42,008 nucleotides of DNA. It comes from Alphaproteobacteria bacterium (GTDB lineage: Bacteria > Pseudomonadota > Alphaproteobacteria > DSM-16000 > Inquilinaceae). Below, piece after piece: positions 4,810 to 25,346 of the stretch (positions are counted from its first letter, which is position 1; every line of letters begins with the position of its first letter). The position numbers and the translations under genes are program-made. A model generated the notes under the pieces. It saw nothing but the letters and a program-made list of their open reading frames with translations, had not been told where the DNA came from and ran no database searches. The stretch covers positions 1-42,008 of the forward strand of contig JAAAOG010000136.1 in the NCBI GenBank assembly GCA_009909005.1. The letters are read 5' to 3'.

Positions 4810-6540
4810 ATGCCGATTTCCAATGAAGACGTTGCGGCGCAGTTCTCCGAACTGGCCGACCTGCTCGACATCGAAGGCGCCAACCGCTTCCGGGTGCGCG
4901 CCTACCGCACCGCCGCCCATGCCATTGCCGACCTGCCCGACAGCGTCGCCGCCCGGCTGGAGCGCGGCACGGACCTGTCCGAACTGCCGGGCATCGGCGA
5001 GGACCTCGCCGGCAAGGTCGCCGAGATCGTCGAGACCGGCCGCCTGTCGCTGCTCGATGAGGTCGAGGCGCGGGTGCCCCCCTCGCTCGCCGATCTGCTC
5101 GACATTCCCGGCATCAGCGCCACCAGGGCGCGGCGGCTCTACGAAGAGCTGGGGGTGACGGGGCCCGGCGATCTGCGGCAGGCGGCCGAGCAGGGCCGGA
5201 TCAGCGGGCTCAAGGGCTTTTCCGACAAGACCGAGCGCGACATCCTGCGCAAGCTCGACCAGCAGATCAGCAAGGCGGAGCGGGTCCGCCTGAAGACCGC
5301 CGAGGCGAGGGTGGAGCCGCTCGCCGCCCATCTGCGCGACCAGCCGGCGGCCGGGCAAGTCGCGATCGCCGGGTCGATCCGCCGGCGGCAGGAGACCTGC
5401 GGCGATGCCGATCTGGTGGCCACCGCCGAAGACGGCCGGGAAACCGCGCTGGTCGAGGCCCTCTGCGGCTGGGAGGACGTGCAGGAGGTGGTCTCACGCG
5501 GCGAGAACCGCGCCTCGGTGCGGCTGTCCGGCGGCTTCCAGGTCGATTTGCGGGTGGTGCCGGCGGAAGGCTTCGGCGCGGCCCTGCACTATTTCACCGG
5601 GGCGCTGGCCCACCATCTCAAATTCCGGCAGATGGCGGTGGAGCGCGGCGAGACCTTCAACGAATACGGCATCTTCCAGGATGAGGAGCGGGTCGCCGGC
5701 CGCGACGAGGAGGAGGTCTACGGCCATTTCGGCCTGCCCTATATCGTCCCGGAGCTGCGCGAGGACCGCGGCGAGATCGAGGCGGCGCGCGAGGGCCGGC
5801 TGCCGCAGCTCGTCCGGCCGGAGGACATCCGCGGCGATCTGCACTGCCACACGCAGTTCTCCGACGGCGCGCAGTCGCTGGCGGAGATGGTCGACGCGGC
5901 CAAGGCGCTCGGCTACGACTATCTGGCGATCACCGACCATTGCCAGGGCCATGCCGGCCCGCCGGGGCTCGATCCCGACGCCCTGGCCCGCCAGGCCGAC
6001 GAGATCGCCGCACTCCGGGAGCGGCACCCCGGCATCGCCATCCTGCGCGGCGCCGAGGTCGACATTCTCGAGGACGGCCGGCTCGACCTGCCCGACAAAG
6101 TGATGGACGAGCTCGACATCGTCGTCTTCTCCATCCACGCGCATCTGCAGCTGTCGCCGCAGGACCAGACGCAGCGGCTGCTGACCGCCATGGACAACCC
6201 GCACGGCCACATCCTCGGCCATCCCACCGAGCGCATCCTCGGCAAGCGCGGCGCCCTGGAGGTCGACATGGACGCGCTGATCGACAAGGCGGCGGAGCGC
6301 GGCATCATCCTGGAAGTCAATGCCAATCCCAGCCGGCTCGACCTGAGCGACGTGAACTGCCGGCGGGCCAAAGAACGCGGGGTGACCCTGGCGATTTCCA
6401 CCGACGCGCACATGACCGAGAACCTGCACTTCATGCGCTACGGCGTCGACCAGGCCCGCCGCGGCTGGCTGGAAGCCGCCGACATCGCCAACACCCGAAC
6501 GCTCCCCGACCTCCGCCACCTCCTCGCCCGTCGCAAATAG
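4810..6540 (+). CDS. polX: DNA polymerase/3'-5' exonuclease PolX
   Basis: This is a family-X DNA polymerase with a C-terminal PHP domain, used in gap filling and base excision repair. It is 576 residues long, the normal size for bacterial PolX. In order it shows helix-hairpin-helix segments (ELPGIGEDLAGKV, LLDIPGISATRARRL), the polymerase-beta palm with Asp residues in CGDADLVA and FQVDLRVV, and a PHP domain beginning GDLHCHTQFSDG with ITDHCQGH and later His/Asp motifs. The start is placed at MPISNEDVA because that is where family similarity begins. It is a single-gene unit. Its 3' end overlaps the open frame of a vapC remnant on the opposite strand. Confidence 0.93.
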   Translation: MPISNEDVAAQFSELADLLDIEGANRFRVRAYRTAAHAIADLPDSVAARLERGTDLSELPGIGEDLAGKVAEIVETGRLSLLDEVEARVPPSLADLLDIPGISATRARRLYEELGVTGPGDLRQAAEQGRISGLKGFSDKTERDILRKLDQQISKAERVRLKTAEARVEPLAAHLRDQPAAGQVAIAGSIRRRQETCGDADLVATAEDGRETALVEALCGWEDVQEVVSRGENRASVRLSGGFQVDLRVVPAEGFGAALHYFTGALAHHLKFRQMAVERGETFNEYGIFQDEERVAGRDEEEVYGHFGLPYIVPELREDRGEIEAAREGRLPQLVRPEDIRGDLHCHTQFSDGAQSLAEMVDAAKALGYDYLAITDHCQGHAGPPGLDPDALARQADEIAALRERHPGIAILRGAEVDILEDGRLDLPDKVMDELDIVVFSIHAHLQLSPQDQTQRLLTAMDNPHGHILGHPTERILGKRGALEVDMDALIDKAAERGIILEVNANPSRLDLSDVNCRRAKERGVTLAISTDAHMTENLHFMRYGVDQARRGWLEAADIANTRTLPDLRHLLARRK

Positions 6541-15907: not shown

Positions 15908-17740
15908 ATGCTTAATCATTTCTTGCCGCGTGGGCTTCTGGGACGCCTCAGAGCCTTTGCCGGCGACCGCAGCGGCGCACACATCACGATCGCGGCCTTC
16001 TTCCTGGTCCCGATCCTGGCCGCGAGCGGCGTGGCCATTGACAGCATCCGCGGCTATACCGTGAGGACGGCGCTGGCGGCTGCCGTGGATACGGCCACTC
16101 TGGCCGCCGCGCACGAGCGCGAAAGCGCCGACCGTCAAGCGACGTTCGATCGGTATTTCGCAGCCAGTTTTCCGGATGGCCATTATGGTGCGGAGATCGT
16201 CTCGACATCCTTGACCTACGATTCGATCGAACGCCGGCTCCACGGCTCGGCGGTGGTCGAGCTCGACACGACCCTGATGGCGGTGGTCGGACAGAACTCG
16301 CTGACAATCTCCTCCGACGCCGTCATCCAGGCCGAACTGCGGGGCATGGAGCTGGTGCTGGTCATGGACAACACCGGGTCGATGCGCGGCGGGGACAGCA
16401 TCGGACGGATGAAGAATGCCGCCCGCGGCCTGATCAACGCGCTGTTCGACGGGAGCTTCGATACCCAGAACCGCTATGACGACACGCTCAGCCAGCAGGA
16501 CCGGCTGGAGCTGGAGAACCTCTTTGTGGCGCTTGTCCCCTATTCGGCCACGGTCAATATCGGCCGCGGTGCCGGGGACCAGGCATGGACGCATGACGGC
16601 GTCGACTGGGAGGACGGCAGCTGGACGGGCGGCACGGAGCGTTTTGCCTGGCTGGACTCGGTCCCGGCGATCGACGACGCCCAGACCGAGAACACGCCGG
16701 GCAGTTCTCCCGACGCCTTCTACCAGAATTCCATCCGGGTCGACTATGCCAGCCGCACGCCGCTGTGCGTCTGTGACGATGATGACGAGACCGCGTGCGA
16801 ACCGGGCAATGCCGCCGACCGTTCGGGCTGCAAGGTCGAGAATGGCCAGATCGTCTGGCAGGAGGTGGGCGGCGATCCGCGCGGCTGGCTGGGCTGCGTC
16901 ATGGCCCGGGCGGGCGACCTCGACCGCACCGACACGCCGCCGGACCAGGACGACCATCTGTTCACGCCCTTCCTCTGGCACAGCAATGCCGCCGAAGAGC
17001 TGCCGGAAGATCCCCAGAACCGCAACAACGACTGGGACAATGACTACTACAACAGCTGGCCGGCAGACTTCAGCGAGCACGATACCGAAGCCGACACGCA
17101 GAACTCCTCGCGCGGGCCCAATCTCGGCTGCCCGCCGCCGATCACGCCGCTGACCCGGAACTATACCGAGATCATGGACGCCATCGACGAGATGGATGCC
17201 TGGCACCGCGGCGGCACCTGGAGCAATGTCGGCATGGCCTGGGGCTGGCGGGCCCTGTCGCCCCGCTGGCGCAGTCACTGGGGCCTTGCCGAAACCTATG
17301 AAACCAACCAGGTGCCGCTGGACTACGGCTATCCCGGGATGGAAAAGGTCGTCGTCGTGCTGACGGACGGCACCAACCAATGGTATCAAGACGATTTCAC
17401 GTCTTTCGGGTACCGCACCGAAGGTCGGCCGGAGTCGCAAGGCGGCCTCGGCGCCACCAGCAACGGCACCGCCACCAGCGAAGCCAACAGCCGCATGGCA
17501 ACGATCTGCGAACGGATGCGCCGCGGCTATCAGGGCGACGTCTATCCGCAGGTTGCGGAGGACAGCCCCGACCGCATCACCATCTACACCATCGTGCTGA
17601 AGGCGACATCGCAGGAGTCGACCTTCGAGAACTGTGCCTCGGCAGACGAGAACTACTTCTTCGCCAGTGACAACAGCGAGCTGGACGGCATCTTCCAGCG
17701 GATCTCCGAACAGCTGAGCGATATCCGCATCGCCGAATAG
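15908..17740 (+). CDS. TadG-like pilus assembly protein with von Willebrand A domain
   Basis: This 610-residue protein has one N-terminal membrane segment (ITIAAFFLVPILAASGVAID) after a TadE/TadG-like leader, which places the bulk in the periplasm. The von Willebrand A domain opens with VMDNTGSM near residue 158 (metal-ion-dependent adhesion site). It holds a long acidic, Cys-containing insertion (CVCDDDDETACEPG) and ends with VVVLTDGTNQWY and a final helix. ATG at 15908 is preceded by GGAGGAG; the frame is open further up without such a signal. No other tad or flp pilus genes are in the window, so it may act in adhesion or as a stand-alone surface protein. Confidence 0.8.
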   Translation: MLNHFLPRGLLGRLRAFAGDRSGAHITIAAFFLVPILAASGVAIDSIRGYTVRTALAAAVDTATLAAAHERESADRQATFDRYFAASFPDGHYGAEIVSTSLTYDSIERRLHGSAVVELDTTLMAVVGQNSLTISSDAVIQAELRGMELVLVMDNTGSMRGGDSIGRMKNAARGLINALFDGSFDTQNRYDDTLSQQDRLELENLFVALVPYSATVNIGRGAGDQAWTHDGVDWEDGSWTGGTERFAWLDSVPAIDDAQTENTPGSSPDAFYQNSIRVDYASRTPLCVCDDDDETACEPGNAADRSGCKVENGQIVWQEVGGDPRGWLGCVMARAGDLDRTDTPPDQDDHLFTPFLWHSNAAEELPEDPQNRNNDWDNDYYNSWPADFSEHDTEADTQNSSRGPNLGCPPPITPLTRNYTEIMDAIDEMDAWHRGGTWSNVGMAWGWRALSPRWRSHWGLAETYETNQVPLDYGYPGMEKVVVVLTDGTNQWYQDDFTSFGYRTEGRPESQGGLGATSNGTATSEANSRMATICERMRRGYQGDVYPQVAEDSPDRITIYTIVLKATSQESTFENCASADENYFFASDNSELDGIFQRISEQLSDIRIAE

Positions 17741-17773
17741 CCCGCGCGTCACGCACGCCGGGTGGCAAGAGCG

Positions 17774-17798
17774 GGGCGGGGCCATGGTGGTCCCGCCC
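17774..17798. terminator. Hairpin between convergent TadG-like and msbA-like genes
   Basis: GGGCGGGGCC (17774-17783) pairs with GGTCCCGCCC (17789-17798), with one G-U wobble and a 5-nt loop. It lies between two converging stops, as expected for a shared terminator. The T-tract is poor on both sides. Confidence 0.5.
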
Positions 17799-17815
17799 TC
17801 TCGCGTTCCGGTCGG

Positions 17816-19630
17816 TCAGCGGTTCCCTGAGGCGACGGCCTCGTGCGGATCGTCGGCATCGTCGCGGAACTGCATGCGGCACAGCTTTGCATACTGGCCC
17901 CCGGCGGCCAGCAGGTCGTCATGGGTGCCCTGCTCCACCACGCAGCCGCCTTCCAGCACGCAGATCAGATCGGCGCTGCGCACCGTGGCCAGGCGATGGG
18001 CGATGACCAGCGTCGTGCGGCCGCGGCTCAGGCGCTCCAGCGCCTGCTGCACCGCCTGCTCGGACTCGGCGTCGAGCGCGCTCGTCGCCTCGTCGAGCAG
18101 CAGGATCGGCGCGTCCTTGAGGATCGCCCGGGCGAGCGCGATGCGCTGGCGCTCGCCGCCGCTCAGGGTCTGACCGCGGTCGCCGACGACGCTGTCATAG
18201 CCCTCCGGCAGCCGGCTGATGAAATCATGCGCCGCCGCCGCCTCGGCCGCCGCGCGGATCTCGGCGTCGGAGGCCTCCGGCCGGCCCATGGCGATATTCG
18301 CCCGCACCGTGTCGTTGAACAGGACGATGTCCTGACTGACCAGGGCGATGGAGCGGCGCAGGCTGTCGAGCGTCACGTCCCGCACATCCTGGCCGTCGAT
18401 CACCACCCGTCCGGCGGTGACGTCGTAGAAGCGCGGGATGAGATTGAAGACCGTCGATTTGCCCGCGCCGCTGCGCCCGACCAGGGCGACGGTCTGCCCG
18501 CCCTCGACCCGGATGGTGCAATCGCGCAGGGCGGCGCTGTCGCCCTCATAGGTGAACGACACGTCTTCCAGCGCCACCGTCCCGGCCCTGACGCTTAGCG
18601 GCCGGGCGTCGGGCCGGTCGGTCACCGCCGGCTTCTCGTCGAGCAGGTCGAAGACCCGCTGCGTGCCGGCCAGGCCTTCCTGCAGCACCGCGTTCAGCGT
18701 GCCGAAGCTGCGGATCGGCTGGGCGGCGATCAAGAGGGCGCTGACGAAGCCGGTGAAATCGCCGACCGTGCCGGCCCCGGTGGTCACGCGGTAGCCGCCG
18801 AAGGCGATCACCCCGCCGACCGCCAGGCCGCCCAGCACCTCCAGGATCGGGTCGAGCCGCGCCCGGTGCTCCACCGCCCGCATGCGCAGCCGGTACATCT
18901 CGTCGAAGGTGGCGTCGGCCCGGCGCTGCTCATAGGGCTCCAACCGGTAGGCCTTGACCATGCGCGCGCCGCCCAGGCTTTCATTGAGCAGTGCGGTCAT
19001 GTCGCCGATCTGCACCTGGGCGCTCTTGGACACGCGGCGCAGGCGCTTGCCGACCTCCATGATCGGGATGGCGGCGACCGGATAGATCAGCAGCACGATG
19101 ATCGACAGCAGCCAGTCGAGATAGATCATCGAGATCACCAGCGCCAAGATGGTCAGCGCATCGCGCACCAGGGCGACGGCGGCGCTCGACAGGGCGTCGG
19201 CGATGTACTGGGTGTCGGCGGTGAAACGCGAGACCAGCGAGCCGATCGGATGGCGCCCCAGCCAGGCGAGGTCGGCGCGCAGCATGCCTCCGAACATCGC
19301 CTTCTGCAGTGCGGCCACCACCTTCATGGCGACCTTGTTGATCAGCAGCGTCTGCAGGTAAAAGGCGCCGCCCTTGGTCGCGGTGATCGCCAGGATGATG
19401 ATGGGCATCAGCCAGACCACCCGCAGATCGCCGGCCTCGTAGAGGTCGTAGGCGTATTTGATCAGCAGCGGATAGGCGCCGGTGGTGGCCGCCACCACCA
19501 CCATGAAGAACAAGGCGGCGGCCAGGGTGGTCCAGTGCGGCTTGACATGGCCGCGCCAGAGGCGGCGCAAGAGGGCGAGCGTCTTCTGGTCGAGGGTGAG
19601 GGCCTCGCGGCGGTCCTGGGAGCGGGCCAT
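17816..19630 (-). CDS. MsbA-like ABC exporter (lipid flippase type)
   Basis: This 604-residue half-transporter has six membrane helices in its first 320 residues. The nucleotide-binding domain shows Walker A GRSGAGKST, signature LSGGERQ, Walker B ILLLDEATSALD and the H-loop IAHRLAT. Length and fused layout match MsbA-family lipid A-core or lipid exporters; other amphipathic substrates cannot be excluded. The start is ATG at 19630 (MARSQDRREA). The upstream part of the open frame looks non-coding. Confidence 0.85.
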   Translation of the reverse strand: MARSQDRREALTLDQKTLALLRRLWRGHVKPHWTTLAAALFFMVVVAATTGAYPLLIKYAYDLYEAGDLRVVWLMPIIILAITATKGGAFYLQTLLINKVAMKVVAALQKAMFGGMLRADLAWLGRHPIGSLVSRFTADTQYIADALSSAAVALVRDALTILALVISMIYLDWLLSIIVLLIYPVAAIPIMEVGKRLRRVSKSAQVQIGDMTALLNESLGGARMVKAYRLEPYEQRRADATFDEMYRLRMRAVEHRARLDPILEVLGGLAVGGVIAFGGYRVTTGAGTVGDFTGFVSALLIAAQPIRSFGTLNAVLQEGLAGTQRVFDLLDEKPAVTDRPDARPLSVRAGTVALEDVSFTYEGDSAALRDCTIRVEGGQTVALVGRSGAGKSTVFNLIPRFYDVTAGRVVIDGQDVRDVTLDSLRRSIALVSQDIVLFNDTVRANIAMGRPEASDAEIRAAAEAAAAHDFISRLPEGYDSVVGDRGQTLSGGERQRIALARAILKDAPILLLDEATSALDAESEQAVQQALERLSRGRTTLVIAHRLATVRSADLICVLEGGCVVEQGTHDDLLAAGGQYAKLCRMQFRDDADDPHEAVASGNR

Positions 19631-19842
19631 GGAACGAAACGGTCTCCGGCAGTCGCGGTCGGATAAGGATGCCAGGAGCCCTAGCCTGAAGGGGCCGTCC
19701 CTGTCCATCCGCATGGCTTGCCGGTCGACGGGGAACAGGGGGCACGCGGCCGGCCGTCACCGCTGTGGGAGCGATCCCCCCCAGCCGCCTCTCAGGCCTC
19801 AATCAAATGCTCAGTATGGCGCGGCGCCGGAATGAGAAGAAA

Positions 19843-19874
19843 CCCGGCCCTTTGCAGATGCGGAAAGGGCCGGG
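19843..19874 (-). terminator. Intrinsic terminator of the sdh operon
   Basis: An 11-bp perfect stem (CCCGGCCCTTT at 19843-19853, AAAGGGCCGGG at 19864-19874) with a 10-nt loop starts 9 nt after the sdhB stop. On the minus strand it is followed by TTTCTTCTC, a usable U-rich tail. Confidence 0.75.
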
Positions 19875-19883
19875 GGGAAGCGA

Positions 19884-20663
19884 TTACATCCGCTCGAAAA
19901 TCAGCTTCTTGGTCTCGGCGATGGCCTTGGCCGGGTTGAGACCCTTCGGGCAGGTCTTGGTGCAGTTCATGATGGTGTGGCAGCGATAGAGCCGGAACGG
20001 GTCCTCGAGATTGTCGAGGCGCTCGCCCGTCATCTCGTCGCGGCTGTCGACGATCCAGCGATAGGCCTGCAGGAGGATCGCGGGGCCGAGATAGCGCTCG
20101 CCGCTCCACCAATAGCTCGGGCAGGCGGTCGAGCAGCAGAAGCACAGGATGCACTCGTACAGCCCGTCGAGCAGCTTGCGCTCCTCCTCGGTCTGCAGCC
20201 GCTCGCGGTCGGGCGGCGGGGCGGTCTGGGTCTGCAGCCAGGGCTTGATCGAGGTGTACTGGGCATAGACGTGGGTCAGGTCGGGCACCAGGTCCTTGAC
20301 CACCGGCATGTGCGGCAGCGGGTAGATCTTGACGTCGCCCTTCACGTCCTCGGTCGCCATGGTGCAGGCGAGCGTGTTGATGCCGTCGATGTTCATGGCG
20401 CAGGAGCCGCAGACGCCCTCGCGGCAGGAGCGGCGGAAGGTCAGCGTCGCGTCGATGTCGTTCTTGATGTGGATGAGCGCATCGAGAACCATCGGCCCGC
20501 AGCGGTCGAGGTCGACCTCGTACTCGTCCATGCGCGGGTTCTGGCCGTCATCCGGGTTCCAGCGATAGACGTGGAACGTCTTCTTGCGCCGGGCGCCCGG
20601 CGGCTCCCCGAACTTCTTGCCTTTGCCGATCTTCGAATTGGCCGGAAGGGTAAATTCTGCCAT
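19884..20663 (-). CDS. sdhB: Succinate dehydrogenase iron-sulfur subunit
   Basis: SdhB carries electrons from the flavin to quinone in complex II. The 259-residue product shows the [2Fe-2S] Cys set ([13 protein letters not shown] ... LAC), then [17 protein letters not shown] and [17 protein letters not shown] for the [4Fe-4S] and [3Fe-4S] clusters. It is last in the operon and is separated from sdhA by an inserted two-gene toxin-antitoxin-like module. Its start lies 44 bp after the zinc-finger gene's stop, so its transcription probably passes through that module. Confidence 0.96.
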
Positions 20664-20707
20664 CTCTCATTCGCCTCGTTACGCTGTCCGTATCGTGTCG
20701 GCCTTCA

Positions 20708-20932
20708 TCAGGCCGCGAAGCGGACGATTTCGACTTCCACGCCGTTGCGGACCGCCGCTTCGGCCCGTTCCATGACTCGTCTCGACATATCCTCGGACAG
20801 ATAATACTCTCCGCAATCGGAGCAGATATCGGCCGGCACGTTTTTCAGGACCACAGTCGACTCGCCGCGCGTCAGGACCACCGTTGCCAGTCCGGAGGCA
20901 GTATCTCCCTGCTTGCACAAGACACACTTCAT
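20708..20932 (-). CDS. YgiT-type zinc-finger protein (MqsA-like antitoxin half)
   Basis: This 74-residue protein has two zinc-binding pairs, CVLC (residues 3-6) and CSDC (about residues 37-40). It matches the YgiT/MqsA N-terminal zinc domain only; the C-terminal helix-turn-helix of full MqsA (about 130 residues) is absent. Its ATG overlaps the DUF4258 gene's stop (ATGA). YgiT-type proteins paired with DUF4258 proteins are a recurring toxin-antitoxin-like arrangement, here wedged between sdhA and sdhB. Confidence 0.8.
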   Translation of the reverse strand: MKCVLCKQGDTASGLATVVLTRGESTVVLKNVPADICSDCGEYYLSEDMSRRVMERAEAAVRNGVEVEIVRFAA

Positions 20933-21213
20933 TTGTTTCTCCGCGTCCTGTAGTCCGGCAGCCAGCGATCCATGTCGGGCAAATACACGGTCACGATGAC
21001 ATCCCGGGGAGGTTCTGTTCCACTGGCGACAACCACGTGAATTGGGGTCTCACCGACATAACCAAGGACCAACCGGCTCGGATAGGGCTGGTCTTCCCGG
21101 TATTCCCTAATGACCTCCCCCTGCTCCAGCACCTGGATAATGTCGTCCTTCCCGATACTTCGCTCAAACATGCGGCGAAGGGCGTGCTGCGAAAAGAGCC
21201 GTTGTCGCGGCAC
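20929..21213 (-). CDS. DUF4258 protein (RelE/MqsR-like toxin candidate)
   Basis: This 94-residue protein has FSQHALRRMFERSI at its start and GEVIREYREDQPYPSRLVLGY in the middle, the pattern of DUF4258. That family is related to small toxins such as BrnT and RelE and is often paired with a YgiT zinc-finger antitoxin. It starts with GTG, 17 bp after the sdhA stop, with a weak GAGGTGATGG site. Toxicity or RNase activity is inferred from family and pairing only. Confidence 0.75.
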   Translation of the reverse strand: MPRQRLFSQHALRRMFERSIGKDDIIQVLEQGEVIREYREDQPYPSRLVLGYVGETPIHVVVASGTEPPRDVIVTVYLPDMDRWLPDYRTRRNK

Positions 21214-21230
21214 GCCTTTAGCCCATCACC

Positions 21231-23039
21231 TCAATAAACCCGGGCCTTGGGTGGGAAGGCCTGGACGTCGTTGGTCATCGGGGTCATGTGGACCGGGCGG
21301 AAATCGATGGTCGACTTGCCCTTTTCGTCGACCCAGATGACGGTGTGCTTCATCCACTCGTCGTCATTGCGCTCGGGGAAATCCTCGCGCGCATGGGCGC
21401 CGCGGCTTTCCAGGCGGTTGTTGGCGCTGTGCATGGTGGCGACGGCCTGGATCATCAGATTGTCGAGTTCCAGCGTCTCGACGAGGTCCGAGTTCCAGAT
21501 CATCGACTTGTCCTCGACGCCCATGCCGCCGCGCTTGGACCAGACCTGGCCGAGCTTGTCGACACCCTCCTGCAGCACCTCGCCGGTGCGGAACACCGCG
21601 CAGTTGTTCTGCATGGTCCGCTGCATTTCCATGCGCAGGTCGGCGGTGCGGATCTCCTGCTTGTTGTGGCGGATGTGGTCGAGCCGGGCGATGGCGTTCT
21701 CGCCGGCATCCGCCGGCAACGCCTTGTGATGCCCGTTGGCTCCGTTGCCCTTCAGGATCTCGCCGGCGCGGTGGGCGGCGGCGCGGCCGAAGACCACGAG
21801 GTCGAGCAGCGAGTTCGAGCCCAGCCGGTTGGCGCCGTGCACCGAGACGCAGGCCGCCTCGCCGATCGCCATCAGGCCCGGCACCACGGCATCGGGGTCG
21901 TCCTTGGTTGGCGCCACCACTTCCGTGAAGCGGTTGGTCGGCACGCCGCCCATATTGTAGTGGACGGTCGGCAGAACCGGGATCGGCTCCTTCGTCACGT
22001 CGACGCCCGCGAAGATCCGCGCCGTCTCGGCGATGCCGGGCAGGCGCGAATGGATCATGTCGGCGTCGAGGTGCTCCAGGTGCAGGTAGATATGGTCGTG
22101 ACCGGAACCGACGCCGCGGCCCTCGCGGATCTCGATGGTCATCGAGCGGCTGACCACGTCGCGGGAGGCGAGATCCTTGGCCGAGGGCGCATAGCGCTCC
22201 ATGAAGCGCTCGCCCTCGTTGTTGGTCAGGTAGCCGCCCTCGCCGCGCACGCCCTCGGTGATCAGGCAGCCGGCGCCGTAGATGCCGGTCGGGTGGAACT
22301 GGACGAATTCCATGTCCTGCAGCGGCAGCCCGGCGCGGGCGACCATGGCATTGCCGTCGCCGGTGCAGGTATGGGCCGAGGTGCAGGAGAAATAGGTCCG
22401 GCCATAGCCGCCGGTGGCCAGCACCACCAGATGCGCCCGGAAGCGGTGGATGGTGCCGTCGTCGAGGTTCCAGGCGACGACGCCGCGGCAGACGCCGTCT
22501 TCCATCATCAGGTCGAGCGCGAACAGCTCGATATAGAACTCCGCCTCGTACTTCAGCGACTGCTGGTAGAGGGTGTGGAGCATGGCATGGCCGGTCCGGT
22601 CGGCCGCGGCGCAGGTCCGATAGGCCTGGCCCTTGCCAAACTGGGTGGTCATGCCGCCAAAGGCGCGCTGGTAGATCTTCCCCTCAGCCGTACGGGAGAA
22701 GGGCAGGCCGTAATGTTCCAGCTCGATAATGGCGGGAATCGCCTCCCGGCACATATACTCGATGGCGTCCTGGTCGCCCAGCCAGTCCGACCCCTTGACG
22801 GTGTCGTACATGTGATAGCGCCAGTCATCCTCGCCCATATTGCCGAGTGCGGCGGAGACGCCGCCCTGCGCCGCCACGGTGTGGCTGCGGGTGGGGAAGA
22901 CCTTGGTGATGCAGGCCGTCTTCAGGCCCTGTTCAGCCATGCCGAAGGTCGCGCGCAGACCGGCGCCGCCGGCGCCGACGACAACGACGTCATAGGTGTG
23001 GTCGATGACCTGATAGGCGTTTGTGGGCGTGGTCGCCAT
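21231..23039 (-). CDS. sdhA: Succinate dehydrogenase flavoprotein subunit
   Basis: SdhA oxidises succinate to fumarate with covalently bound FAD. The 602-residue product has the FAD-binding [13 protein letters not shown], the flavin-linking His in [13 protein letters not shown], and the catalytic-site blocks [11 protein letters not shown] and [18 protein letters not shown]. Its length is normal. It starts 6 bp after the sdhD stop, so the two are tightly coupled. Confidence 0.97.
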
Positions 23040-23045
23040 GGCGGC

Positions 23046-23444
23046 TTAGCCTCCGAATGCAATCATGAGAACAGAGACGATCGAGGCAATGCCGAAGAAC
23101 GCGAGAACGAGGCGGGTCACCACATTCACCGCGACCTCCAGCCATTTCGGCTCGATATAGTCCTCGTAGACGACCTGCATACCCAGTGCGGCATGATAGA
23201 ACCCGAAGGCCAGGAAGCCGATCATCAGCGTCGCCGCGATCGGGTTGCTCATCCAGGAGGCCATGGCCGCATAGCCGGCATCGGCGCTGTCGGCGGCGGC
23301 GATCATCCCGATCACGGAGATCACGAACCAGATGGTCAGGGGGATGAGGGCGACGGCCGTCAGCCGCTGCACCCACCAGTGATGCGCGCCTTCCTTGGCG
23401 GAACCGAGGCCGCGGGCGCGCGCGACGGGCGTACGAAGGCTCAT
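23046..23444 (-). CDS. sdhD: Succinate dehydrogenase membrane anchor subunit
   Basis: This 132-residue protein has three hydrophobic segments. HHWWVQRLTAVALIPL near residue 20 and FGFYHAALGMQVVYEDY carry the conserved His and the quinone/haem-side residues of SdhD. It anchors SdhAB in the inner membrane together with SdhC. The start at 23444 (MSLRTPVARARGLG) fits family similarity. Confidence 0.92.
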   Translation of the reverse strand: MSLRTPVARARGLGSAKEGAHHWWVQRLTAVALIPLTIWFVISVIGMIAAADSADAGYAAMASWMSNPIAATLMIGFLAFGFYHAALGMQVVYEDYIEPKWLEVAVNVVTRLVLAFFGIASIVSVLMIAFGG

Positions 23445-23513
23445 GCTAGATCTCACCGACAGACAGGTTGTCAAAACGGGCGAAGGACGAAACGGTCGGG
23501 GGACGCGAGAGGC

Positions 23514-23906
23514 TCACCAGACCGCAAAGGCGACGATCCAGGCGACCAGCGTCAGGCCGCCGGCGACGGCGACGGTCACCCAGCCGGTCTGGGTCACCGT
23601 TTCGATCTCCAGGCCGAGGCCGAGATCCCAGGCGAGGTGGCGGACGCCGTTGCACAGGTGGTAGAAGAGCGAGAACGACCAGGCGAGCAGCAGCAGCACC
23701 CCGAGGAACGAGCCGATCCAGTCCTGGGCCGCGGCAAAGGCCTCCGCACCCGAGGCGGCGGCGATCAACCAATAGGCGATCAGAAGCGTCCCCAGCGTCA
23801 GCGCCACGCCGGTCATCCGGTGAAGGATCGACAGCACGCTGGTGATCTGGGGGCGGTAGATTTGCAGGTGCGGCGACAGGGGCCGGTTTTGCGTAGCCGT
23901 TGGCAT
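23514..23906 (-). CDS. sdhC: Succinate dehydrogenase cytochrome b556 subunit
   Basis: This 130-residue protein has RPLSPHLQIYRPQITSVLS and HRMTG motifs and the haem-ligand His region FYHLCNGVRHLAWD, with three membrane helices. It is first in the operon sdhC-sdhD-sdhA-(DUF4258-YgiT)-sdhB. It is divergent from a methyltransferase gene across about 227 bp that should hold the sdh promoter; no clear hexamers were picked out there. Confidence 0.93.
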   Translation of the reverse strand: MPTATQNRPLSPHLQIYRPQITSVLSILHRMTGVALTLGTLLIAYWLIAAASGAEAFAAAQDWIGSFLGVLLLLAWSFSLFYHLCNGVRHLAWDLGLGLEIETVTQTGWVTVAVAGGLTLVAWIVAFAVW

Positions 23907-24133
23907 GTCTGGTCCTATGGCTCGAATGTCTCTTGCTGGATGGCACCGCGGCCCGGAACCGGGGCGGCGCGGGGGCGCTGGGCGGCTTATGTTGTGTTGC
24001 ACCATTGCTAATAAGCGCCCGAAACCATCGAGTCAAATCACCCGATGTCGCAGTGCAAAAAATTCCGGAACTTGTTAAGGGGTTTTCGTCAGATCGGGCG
24101 ATTGCCCCGATCGCGATCGGAGACGGCACGGCA

Positions 24134-24895
24134 ATGACGAGCGATTCGGCCGGTCAACCCTGGGATGCTGCGGGTTATGCCGCCCATGCGCCCTTTGTCC
24201 CGGAACTCGGCGCCCCGCTGGTGGCGCTTCTGGCGCCGCGGCCGGGCGAGCGCATCCTCGATATCGGGTGCGGCGACGGGACGCTCACCGTTGCTCTGGC
24301 GGCGGCCGGCGCCGCGGTCGTCGGCGTGGATGCCTCGCCCGAGATGGTTGCGGCGGCGCGGGCCCGCGGCCTCGATGCCCGAGTCGCCGATGCCGCCGCC
24401 CTGCCTTTCGCGGGCGAATTCGACGCCGTCTTCAGCAATGCCGCCCTGCACTGGGTGCCGGACCATGACGCCGCCGTCGCCGGGATGGCCCGGGCGCTGA
24501 AGCCGGGCGGCCGGGCGGTGGGGGAACTCGGCGGCTTCGGCAATGTGGCGGCGATCGCCACGGCGCTGGCCGCGGTGATGGGGCGGCGCGGCTTCGCCGA
24601 CTCGGTGCTGCCATGGCACTTCCCCACGGCGGCGCGCTTTGCCGAGCGGCTGGCGTGGCACGGCTTTACGGTGGAGAGCTGCGCGCTGACCCCGCGGCCG
24701 ACGCCGCTGCCGACCGGCATGAGCGGCTGGCTGGAGACCTTCGCCGCCGGCATCTTCGGCCGCCTGCCGCCGGACGACCGGACCGCCGCCCGCGACGAGG
24801 CGGTGGCACTGCTGCGCCCGGCCCTGTGCGATGAGGACGACAACTGGACCGCGGACTATGTGCGCCTGCGCTTCGTCGCGCGCCTCACGGCCTGA
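24134..24895 (+). CDS. Class I SAM-dependent methyltransferase
   Basis: This 253-residue protein has a glycine-rich SAM site (ILDIGCGDGTLTVAL), the acidic loop VVGVDASPEMV and VFSNAALHWVPDHDAA. The layout is like trans-aconitate methyltransferase and related small-molecule enzymes, but the substrate is not predictable. The start is ATG at 24134, where similarity begins. Its last 11 bp overlap the end of the convergent repeat-containing gene. Confidence 0.85.
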   Translation: MTSDSAGQPWDAAGYAAHAPFVPELGAPLVALLAPRPGERILDIGCGDGTLTVALAAAGAAVVGVDASPEMVAAARARGLDARVADAAALPFAGEFDAVFSNAALHWVPDHDAAVAGMARALKPGGRAVGELGGFGNVAAIATALAAVMGRRGFADSVLPWHFPTAARFAERLAWHGFTVESCALTPRPTPLPTGMSGWLETFAAGIFGRLPPDDRTAARDEAVALLRPALCDEDDNWTADYVRLRFVARLTA

Positions 24896-25346
24896 GATAC
24901 GGCGCGATTGCGATGCCGCCGATCAGAATGCTGCAGATGCCAAGGACCATGGTGATGATGGTTCCGACCATGAACGGGGTAGTCGGGTGGTGAGCAAGAT
25001 CGGTCTTGGTTGCCGTGTCATCCAGACGCCATTCCACCTTCTCCAACCGCTTCTCCATCGACTGCAGCCGGGTCTCAAGTCCGGCCACTTCTTCCTTAGT
25101 CGCCATGCGCCGGTCGATTTCGGCGATGTCATCCTTGGTCGCCATGCGCCGCTCGATTTCGGCGATGTCATCCTTGGTCGCCATGCGCCGCTCGATTTCG
25201 GCGATGTCGTCCTTGGTCGCCATGCGCCGCTCGATGTCGGCGATATCGTCCTTGGTTGCCATGCGGTCGTGCATGTCGGTGACGAGCGGAAGCAGCTGAT
25301 CGCGGATCAGCGTGTCGAGAGAGGCTTTCGGGTCGATGTGGTTCAT
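24885..25346 (-). CDS. Coiled-coil protein built on 13-residue repeats, with C-terminal membrane anchor
   Basis: This 153-residue protein has an N-terminal leader (MNHIDPKASLDTLIRDQ), then four 13-residue repeats of the type RMATKDDIAEIER plus a partial one. A heptad-rich segment (LETRLQSMEKRLEKVEWRL) follows, and a hydrophobic stretch of about 23 residues near the C-terminus (MVGTIITMVLGICSILIGG). It should be an inner-membrane-anchored coiled-coil rod. Such MATKDDI repeats occur in poorly characterised bacterial and phage-related proteins. Its function is unknown. Confidence 0.7.
   Translation of the reverse strand: MNHIDPKASLDTLIRDQLLPLVTDMHDRMATKDDIADIERRMATKDDIAEIERRMATKDDIAEIERRMATKDDIAEIDRRMATKEEVAGLETRLQSMEKRLEKVEWRLDDTATKTDLAHHPTTPFMVGTIITMVLGICSILIGGIAIAPYLRP
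25099..25265. repeat. 39-bp tandem repeat inside the coiled-coil gene
   Basis: Four full units of 39 bp start at 25099, 25138, 25177 and 25216, and a partial fifth starts at 25255. The units differ at only a few positions. The length is a multiple of three, so each unit adds 13 residues, and the copy number could change by slippage without breaking the frame. Confidence 0.9.

Follow-up and report, generated by a model that had tools for sequence, protein, structure and literature searches.

Toxin-antitoxin modules are usually seen as free-standing, self-regulated units on plasmids, on islands or between operons. The window, which is the whole stretch of 42,008 nucleotides analysed here, raises the question of how two small genes of this type came to lie between sdhA and sdhB of a succinate dehydrogenase operon, and what may keep them there. 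We consider it likely that a toxin-antitoxin module was acquired horizontally into the sdhA-sdhB gap, and that this gap is a recurrent landing site in the class. The computed basis for this proposal consists of the anatomy of the operon, the predicted fold of the putative toxin, the presence of the module in four orders, the empty sites of relatives, codon use and the cargo found in congeners. The toxin family itself is known and poorly studied; what stands out is where it recurs, within a core respiratory operon.

A two-gene module inside the sdh operon

According to the open reading frames of the window and the family models, the gene order on the minus strand is sdhC-sdhD-sdhA-DUF4258-YgiT-sdhB, with all genes from sdhC to sdhB co-oriented (Table 1). 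Coordinates and family models bear out the original prediction, which placed the pair between sdhA and sdhB in one orientation: sdhA is separated from the DUF4258 gene by 17 nt and the YgiT gene from sdhB by 44 nt, and the two inserted genes overlap by 4 nt (ATGA). The family matches and the recurrence of the pair at this position elsewhere, in other genomes, exclude a chance arrangement. SdhA of the window is 76-84% identical to the proteins of 13 family relatives over the parts fetched. Judging from the sequence, the pair is probably co-transcribed with the sdh operon. A consensus scan of positions 17500-22800, a poor guide for such organisms, returned no sigma-70-like site on the minus strand, and an equally poor guide, the scan for terminator-like sites over both strands of the same interval, returned 5 against 1.9 expected. 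Two of the five, weak hairpins on the minus strand, lie in or next to the pair, at 21261-21243 inside sdhA and at 20822-20809 inside the YgiT gene. The operon had also been described as essential, which was not confirmed: the genome harbors a second, distant SdhA/SdhB-like pair (L019, C125; SdhB 35% and SdhA 37% identical) that bears on how essential the operon of the window is. Elsewhere in the window, positions 24885-25346 of the minus strand encode a small protein in which a MATKDDIAEIERR-like segment recurs in about four near-identical copies and whose tail is membrane-like.

Table 1. Genes of the sdh operon of the window and of the inserted pair; on the minus strand, 21231 is the last position of sdhA and 20663 the first of sdhB
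Feature	Coordinates	Strand	Family match
sdhC, cytochrome b subunit	23514..24005	-	PF01127, E 1.3e-31
sdhD, membrane anchor	23046..23474	-	PF01127, E 5.7e-22
sdhA, flavoprotein subunit, intact to its KARVY-stop end	21231..23039	-	PF00890 + PF02910
DUF4258 gene, 94 aa, GTG start, predicted toxin	20929..21213	-	PF14076, E 9.2e-24
YgiT-type zinc-finger gene, 74 aa, predicted antitoxin	20708..20932	-	TIGR03831, E 4.2e-13
sdhB, iron-sulfur subunit, intact	19884..20663	-	PF13085, E 4.3e-34

The DUF4258 protein scores 84 bits against PF14076, for which the Pfam cut-off is 25, and its AlphaFold2 model (pLDDT 94.3) displays a strand-helix-helix-four-strand layout. The top matches of this model in a structural aligner, for which Z values of 7-8 can be background, are 7vd7, a chain of a Salmonella toxin-antitoxin system (Z 10.0), BrnT (8.0) and RelE (7.6); chain D of 3hi2, which we take to be MqsR, was matched at Z 6.8. 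Most of the 50 structural matches listed are toxins of the BECR fold, with Z values of 5.9-10.0. Since the best Foldseek match, to HigB2, reached E 8e-3 and none fell below 1e-3, the fold match rests on consistency and not on one strong match. On these grounds the predicted structure is that of a RelE-like (BECR) fold, and the protein is probably a toxin of the RelE/ParE (BECR) superfamily with RNase activity. It had no match in a phage collection or in a library of anti-phage models, in which the YgiT protein had one weak match (PglX, E 0.013). Its conserved residues include H10, R14, R18, H59, Y77 and W84. Run against PDB sequences, the DUF4258 profile gave two matches, at E 0.7 and 0.93, which we read as chance, and a scan of the genome collection with the single DUF4258 protein returned zero relatives.

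The YgiT protein matches the MqsA family (PF15731) at E 3.1e-8 over positions 1-65 of 131, that is, over the N-terminal part only, and has no helix-turn-helix, in agreement with the earlier view that the antitoxin lacks the DNA-binding domain of MqsA. Its structural model matches those of the N-terminal domain of MqsA (Foldseek E ~1e-4); so modelled, it is recognised as an MqsA-like toxin-binding domain and predicted to be a minimal antitoxin. The proposal that autoregulation is missing as a special feature of the sdh setting was not supported. The YgiT proteins of DUF4258/YgiT pairs away from sdh are equally short, their median length being 75 aa and the longest 101 aa (47 rows, their starts picked by script), and those of seven sdh sites measure 74-82 aa. 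The absent DNA-binding domain is therefore not a special adaptation, and adaptation by loss of autoregulation is not supported.

A YgiT gene is located directly downstream of the DUF4258 gene in 57 of 61 DUF4258 relatives, from many phyla; as in type II modules, the two genes are small, adjacent and co-directional and stay paired across distant genomes. This pairing, together with the domain matches, indicates that the two genes form a conserved module of the toxin-antitoxin kind, and the best reading of the sequences is that of a predicted toxin with its predicted antitoxin. None of the 61 loci has an sdh gene in the fetched stretch; they include G031 and two near-identical loci from Rhodospirillaceae, so that the class also has copies outside sdh. 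For 53 of the 57 pairs, all away from sdh, operon embedding was estimated roughly with a simple ORF picker: 5 of the 53 are embedded on both sides and 13 of the 53 lie within 60 nt of an upstream co-directional ORF. A weaker second DUF4258 match is present on another contig of the window's genome (L066, C127:585-782). Other DUF4258 genes of the class precede, as recognised by eye, larger partners of HTH type (L044, L048, L054, L057, L060, L065) or DUF2283-like genes (L050, L055), and the toxin family thus seems to pair with three or more kinds of partner.

Occupants of the sdhA-sdhB gap

The family of the window comprises 17 genomes, 14 of which have a readable sdhA-sdhB junction. The DUF4258/YgiT pair is found in one of these, the genome of the window (G000), and in 11 the two genes are separated by 7-131 nt; this synteny supports the original claim that the pair was inserted and is missing from the same place in relatives. 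A fixed sdh component, as which the pair might have been conserved across the order, was accordingly rejected for the family, the one family of the order among the relatives listed. The remaining two loci hold a VapD-like gene (G003) and a GIY-YIG gene between short repeats (G014); the latter, a nuclease gene (L039), is flanked on both sides by inverted CCCCGCGAAAGCGGGGAT-type repeats.

In the class, which we take to be Alphaproteobacteria, 108 genomes had both genes among the best 150 of more than 300 matches for each; G208 and G096, in which the genes are on different contigs or strands, were left out. Among the matches listed, the median sdhA-sdhB gap was 30.5 nt, and 11 of the 108 genomes had a gap of at least 250 nt. 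These large gaps contain DUF4258-YgiT in G000, G102 and G328 (with a truncated toxin in G328), the VapD-like gene in G003, a gene for a GGDEF protein in G251 and CreD in G106 and G094, assigned by Pfam in the former and, without a family search, by likeness to G106 in the latter. This CreD-like membrane protein gene, found in two families (L034 in G094, L035 in G106), is a second recurrent cargo. In G321 the gap holds a YidB-like ORF and one further ORF without a family, both antisense and neither with a toxin-antitoxin match; likewise, no recognised family and no toxin-antitoxin match were found for the gap ORFs of G116, G050 and G350 (three short ORFs). As a rough estimate from 36 readable genomes among 40 taken non-randomly from the top of the SdhA list, the sdhC-sdhD gap is at most 23 nt and the sdhD-sdhA gap at most 108 nt, with values of zero or below in 31 and 24 of the 36 genomes, respectively.

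In two orders the gap holds a VapD-like gene in the orientation of the sdh genes (G003, L029; G398, L251). The gene of G003 reaches 57.5 bits against an NCBIfam VapD cut-off of 100, and that of G398 was assigned by 55% identity to it. Both are preceded by an in-frame stretch holding an IGHN motif, and in G003 the stop codon overlaps the start of sdhB by one base. Elsewhere, VapD-like genes were found at 5 places in 4 of 115 class genomes, with no sdh gene in the fetched stretch.

Enrichment of the antitoxin at this site emerged from a YgiT profile search of 385 class genomes made without reference to sdh. Nine genomes matched at E 1e-6 or better, five of them strongly (E 1e-19 or better: G000, G031, G102, G369 and G328), and four of the five strong matches are located between sdhA and sdhB; for the four weaker matches, no sdh gene was present in the fetched stretches. 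Added searches of the orders of G102 (4 genomes), G369 (11) and G328 (23), which partly overlap the 385, contributed G397, G399 and G410, each with YgiT between sdhA and sdhB. Overall, seven of eight strong matches, from four orders, are at this junction (G000, G102, G328, G410, G369, G397 and G399), compared with none of the 27 YgiT loci found besides that of the window in a sample of 200 genomes of the phylum (2.0-3.2 kb fetched; Fisher p ~1e-6, relatedness ignored). The first profile was biased in that it contained two sdh-resident members, a bias that this phylum control, run with a profile built solely from sdh-resident YgiT, argues against. The counts are small, and many of the genomes are fragmented assemblies.

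Occupied sites have empty counterparts close by. In the order of G369, readable in 10 of 11 genomes, YgiT inserts are present in G369, G397 and G399 and the VapD-like gene in G398, and short gaps of 33-51 nt are found in G080, G199, G292, G400 and G401; the first three of these (33, 50 and 50 nt) are congeners of G369. A 288-nt insert with nested inverted repeats and no recognised gene occupies the gap of G402 (L241). Of 20 readable genomes among the 23 in the order of G328, G328 and G410 carry an insert and the other 18 have short gaps, including their congener G411 (10 nt). Congeners of G102 are likewise empty (G214, G305 and G382, with 1, 2 and 91 nt).

The cargo itself varies. DUF4258 and YgiT are both complete in four of the seven cases (G000, G102, G399 and G410); G328 retains a DUF4258 gene without its N-terminal part in addition to YgiT, G397 has YgiT alone, and in G369 YgiT is preceded by ParA-like and RelA/SpoT-like genes (GC3 0.39). 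In all seven, YgiT is intact and adjoins sdhB. The very low-GC ParA-like/RelA/SpoT-like pair of G369 extends between sdhA and YgiT (L141:87-1863), and the RelA/SpoT-like product could be an alarmone synthetase that is toxic and has acquired a new partner.

Origin and retention of the insertions

The codon composition of the inserted pairs looks foreign, with GC3 values of 0.60-0.72 against 0.82-0.98 in the sdh genes (in the window, 0.68 for DUF4258 and 0.72 for YgiT against 0.90 for sdhA). We consider it most likely that cassettes arrive by rare illegitimate insertion into the sdhA-sdhB gap, which would tolerate insertion where the other sdh junctions are tight, and that they may then spread by recombination through the conserved ends of sdhA and sdhB. 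Once in place, the pair would be read through from the sdh promoter and the YgiT antitoxin would bind and block the DUF4258 toxin; loss of the module would be penalised, as the toxin would outlive the antitoxin and as sdhB might be disturbed by deletions. Retention by addiction is plausible. A possible trace of the insertion step is found in G102, in which the 5'-terminal 70 nt of sdhB form a direct repeat (76%; L147:4325-4394 and 4947-5016) on either side of the pair, one copy preceding DUF4258 and the other being the real sdhB start, as if it were the footprint of an insertion at the start of sdhB or of uneven recombination there. No flanking repeats of at least 14 nt were found in the stretches analysed for the window, for G399 and for G410; G369 lacks direct repeats, and within its insert lie two inverted repeats, both short and imperfect. 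In the sdh flanks of cargo-bearing congeners, no raised similarity that might mark recombination was seen, 150-nt blocks being 0.86-0.99 identical with no clear junction step. The bolder version of the proposal, in which the gap is a dedicated exchange slot where DUF4258-YgiT, ParA-RelA/SpoT-YgiT and VapD cassettes are swapped via the sdh flanks and expressed from the respiratory promoter, with YgiT outliving its toxins as the resident, is one we entertain as possible and regard as rather doubtful.

Whether the insertions are recent or old may be asked of the trees, which were built on ~75-92 columns from 44 of the 57 pairs, the second YgiT tree including 18 of the 27 phylum loci. The sdh-resident YgiT proteins cluster on them (2 changes, where shuffles averaged 6.7 and 6.8 and none of 500 gave so few), and a single clade of these proteins is not rejected (AU p 0.44 and 0.23 in the two trees), nor is a clade of the YgiT of G369, G397 and G399 (AU p 0.39). 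Similarly, the four full-length sdh-resident DUF4258 proteins require two changes, forced by starred branches (4 of 500 shuffles as low), and their single clade is not rejected (AU p 0.42). Such a pattern, together with a YgiT intact in every sdh case beside a DUF4258 complete in four of seven, would suit an ancient resident that entered once in the ancestor of the class and was mostly lost, its toxins decaying or being swapped and its YgiT kept. We nevertheless consider this unlikely. In one genus (G369, G397 and G399) SdhB is 94-98% identical and YgiT 42-50%, which makes simple vertical inheritance improbable, whereas the values in G328 and G410 are 99% and 96%; the YgiT of G397 groups on a starred branch with that of another order; and many losses would be needed, with a GC3 that stays below that of the host. 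From these sequences the site has probably been refilled more than once, and we take the data as a whole to reflect several acquisitions, in part perhaps through exchange from one sdh site to another, with the window copy, which falls outside the main sdh group in the trees, probably a separate arrival.

Horizontal acquisition followed by addiction must also be weighed against a role for chance or for the host. The gap could simply be the sole loose joint of a tight operon, collecting any small gene as a functionless passenger. The overlapping or abutting junctions estimated upstream, compared with the sdhA-sdhB median among the matches listed, agree with this, as do the CreD, GGDEF, GIY-YIG and ORF-poor inserts, by which not all cargo is toxin-antitoxin-like. 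Yet looseness leaves unexplained why seven of eight strong YgiT matches lie in one gap, and YgiT, intact throughout, shows a dN/dS of 0.12 between G328 and G410 (13 changes); we find passive accumulation unlikely, though slightly less so than a single ancient entry. The truncated DUF4258 tail has a dN/dS of 0.23, with too few changes to set it apart from that of YgiT. A further reading gives YgiT a role in the sdh operon itself, as a regulator or a helper in assembly, for which it would be kept with or without its toxin, and draws on its position immediately ahead of sdhB in all seven cases and on its presence alone in G397, beside a truncated DUF4258 in G328 and behind ParA-like and RelA/SpoT-like genes in G369. 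We hold it to be very unlikely: most of the relatives in which sdhA and sdhB are present lack YgiT, it has no DNA-binding domain, and such a protein accompanies DUF4258 in many phyla away from sdh.

A gap in a housekeeping operon that hosts toxin-antitoxin genes in several orders, the toxins belonging to different families, raises the possibility that a position inside a core operon is in itself a means of persistence. The sdhA-sdhB gap offers a system in which addiction by embedding can be tested, and could serve as a genomic marker in the search for new toxin or defence genes. Among open-access papers, judged by their titles and the starts of their abstracts, no earlier report of toxin-antitoxin genes in this gap was found.

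Relation to known toxin-antitoxin systems

Within the class, the VapD-like genes of G003 and G398 are a parallel, being of toxin type and sharing gap and orientation with the window pair, although each is a single gene of an unrelated toxin family and the window holds the two-gene DUF4258/YgiT unit. DUF4258 itself is counted among 13 BECR toxin families in PMC11980606, where its target is given as unknown, without a reference, and the window protein has both the Pfam family and the predicted fold in common with it. The paper also includes 17 DUF4258-MqsA fusions among toxin-antitoxin fusions, in the same toxin-to-antitoxin order as the window pair. Its table, in contrast, places the antitoxin first for DUF4258, whereas in the window the toxin comes first, its partner consists of a YgiT finger alone and both genes are embedded in sdh.

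A toxin-first order is also that of MqsR/MqsA of E. coli, as given in table 1 of PMC11980606. The window YgiT matches the N-terminal toxin-binding domain of MqsA, and DUF4258 has its general fold in common with the 3hi2 chain that we take to be MqsR. The pair nevertheless falls outside MqsRA: the toxin belongs to another Pfam family, PF14076 being its sole match, and the antitoxin, at 74 aa, is devoid of the C-terminal helix-turn-helix by which MqsA binds DNA. Another counterpart is encoded by the Bdellovibrio plasmid pBdHAGR5 (AP029181.1), in which both proteins are 46% identical to those of the window, the genes share the 4-nt overlap and, as in the window, the pair is co-directional with the preceding genes. 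There, however, it follows a ParA gene and a hypothetical gene on a small plasmid, whereas the pair of the window is embedded in a respiratory operon.
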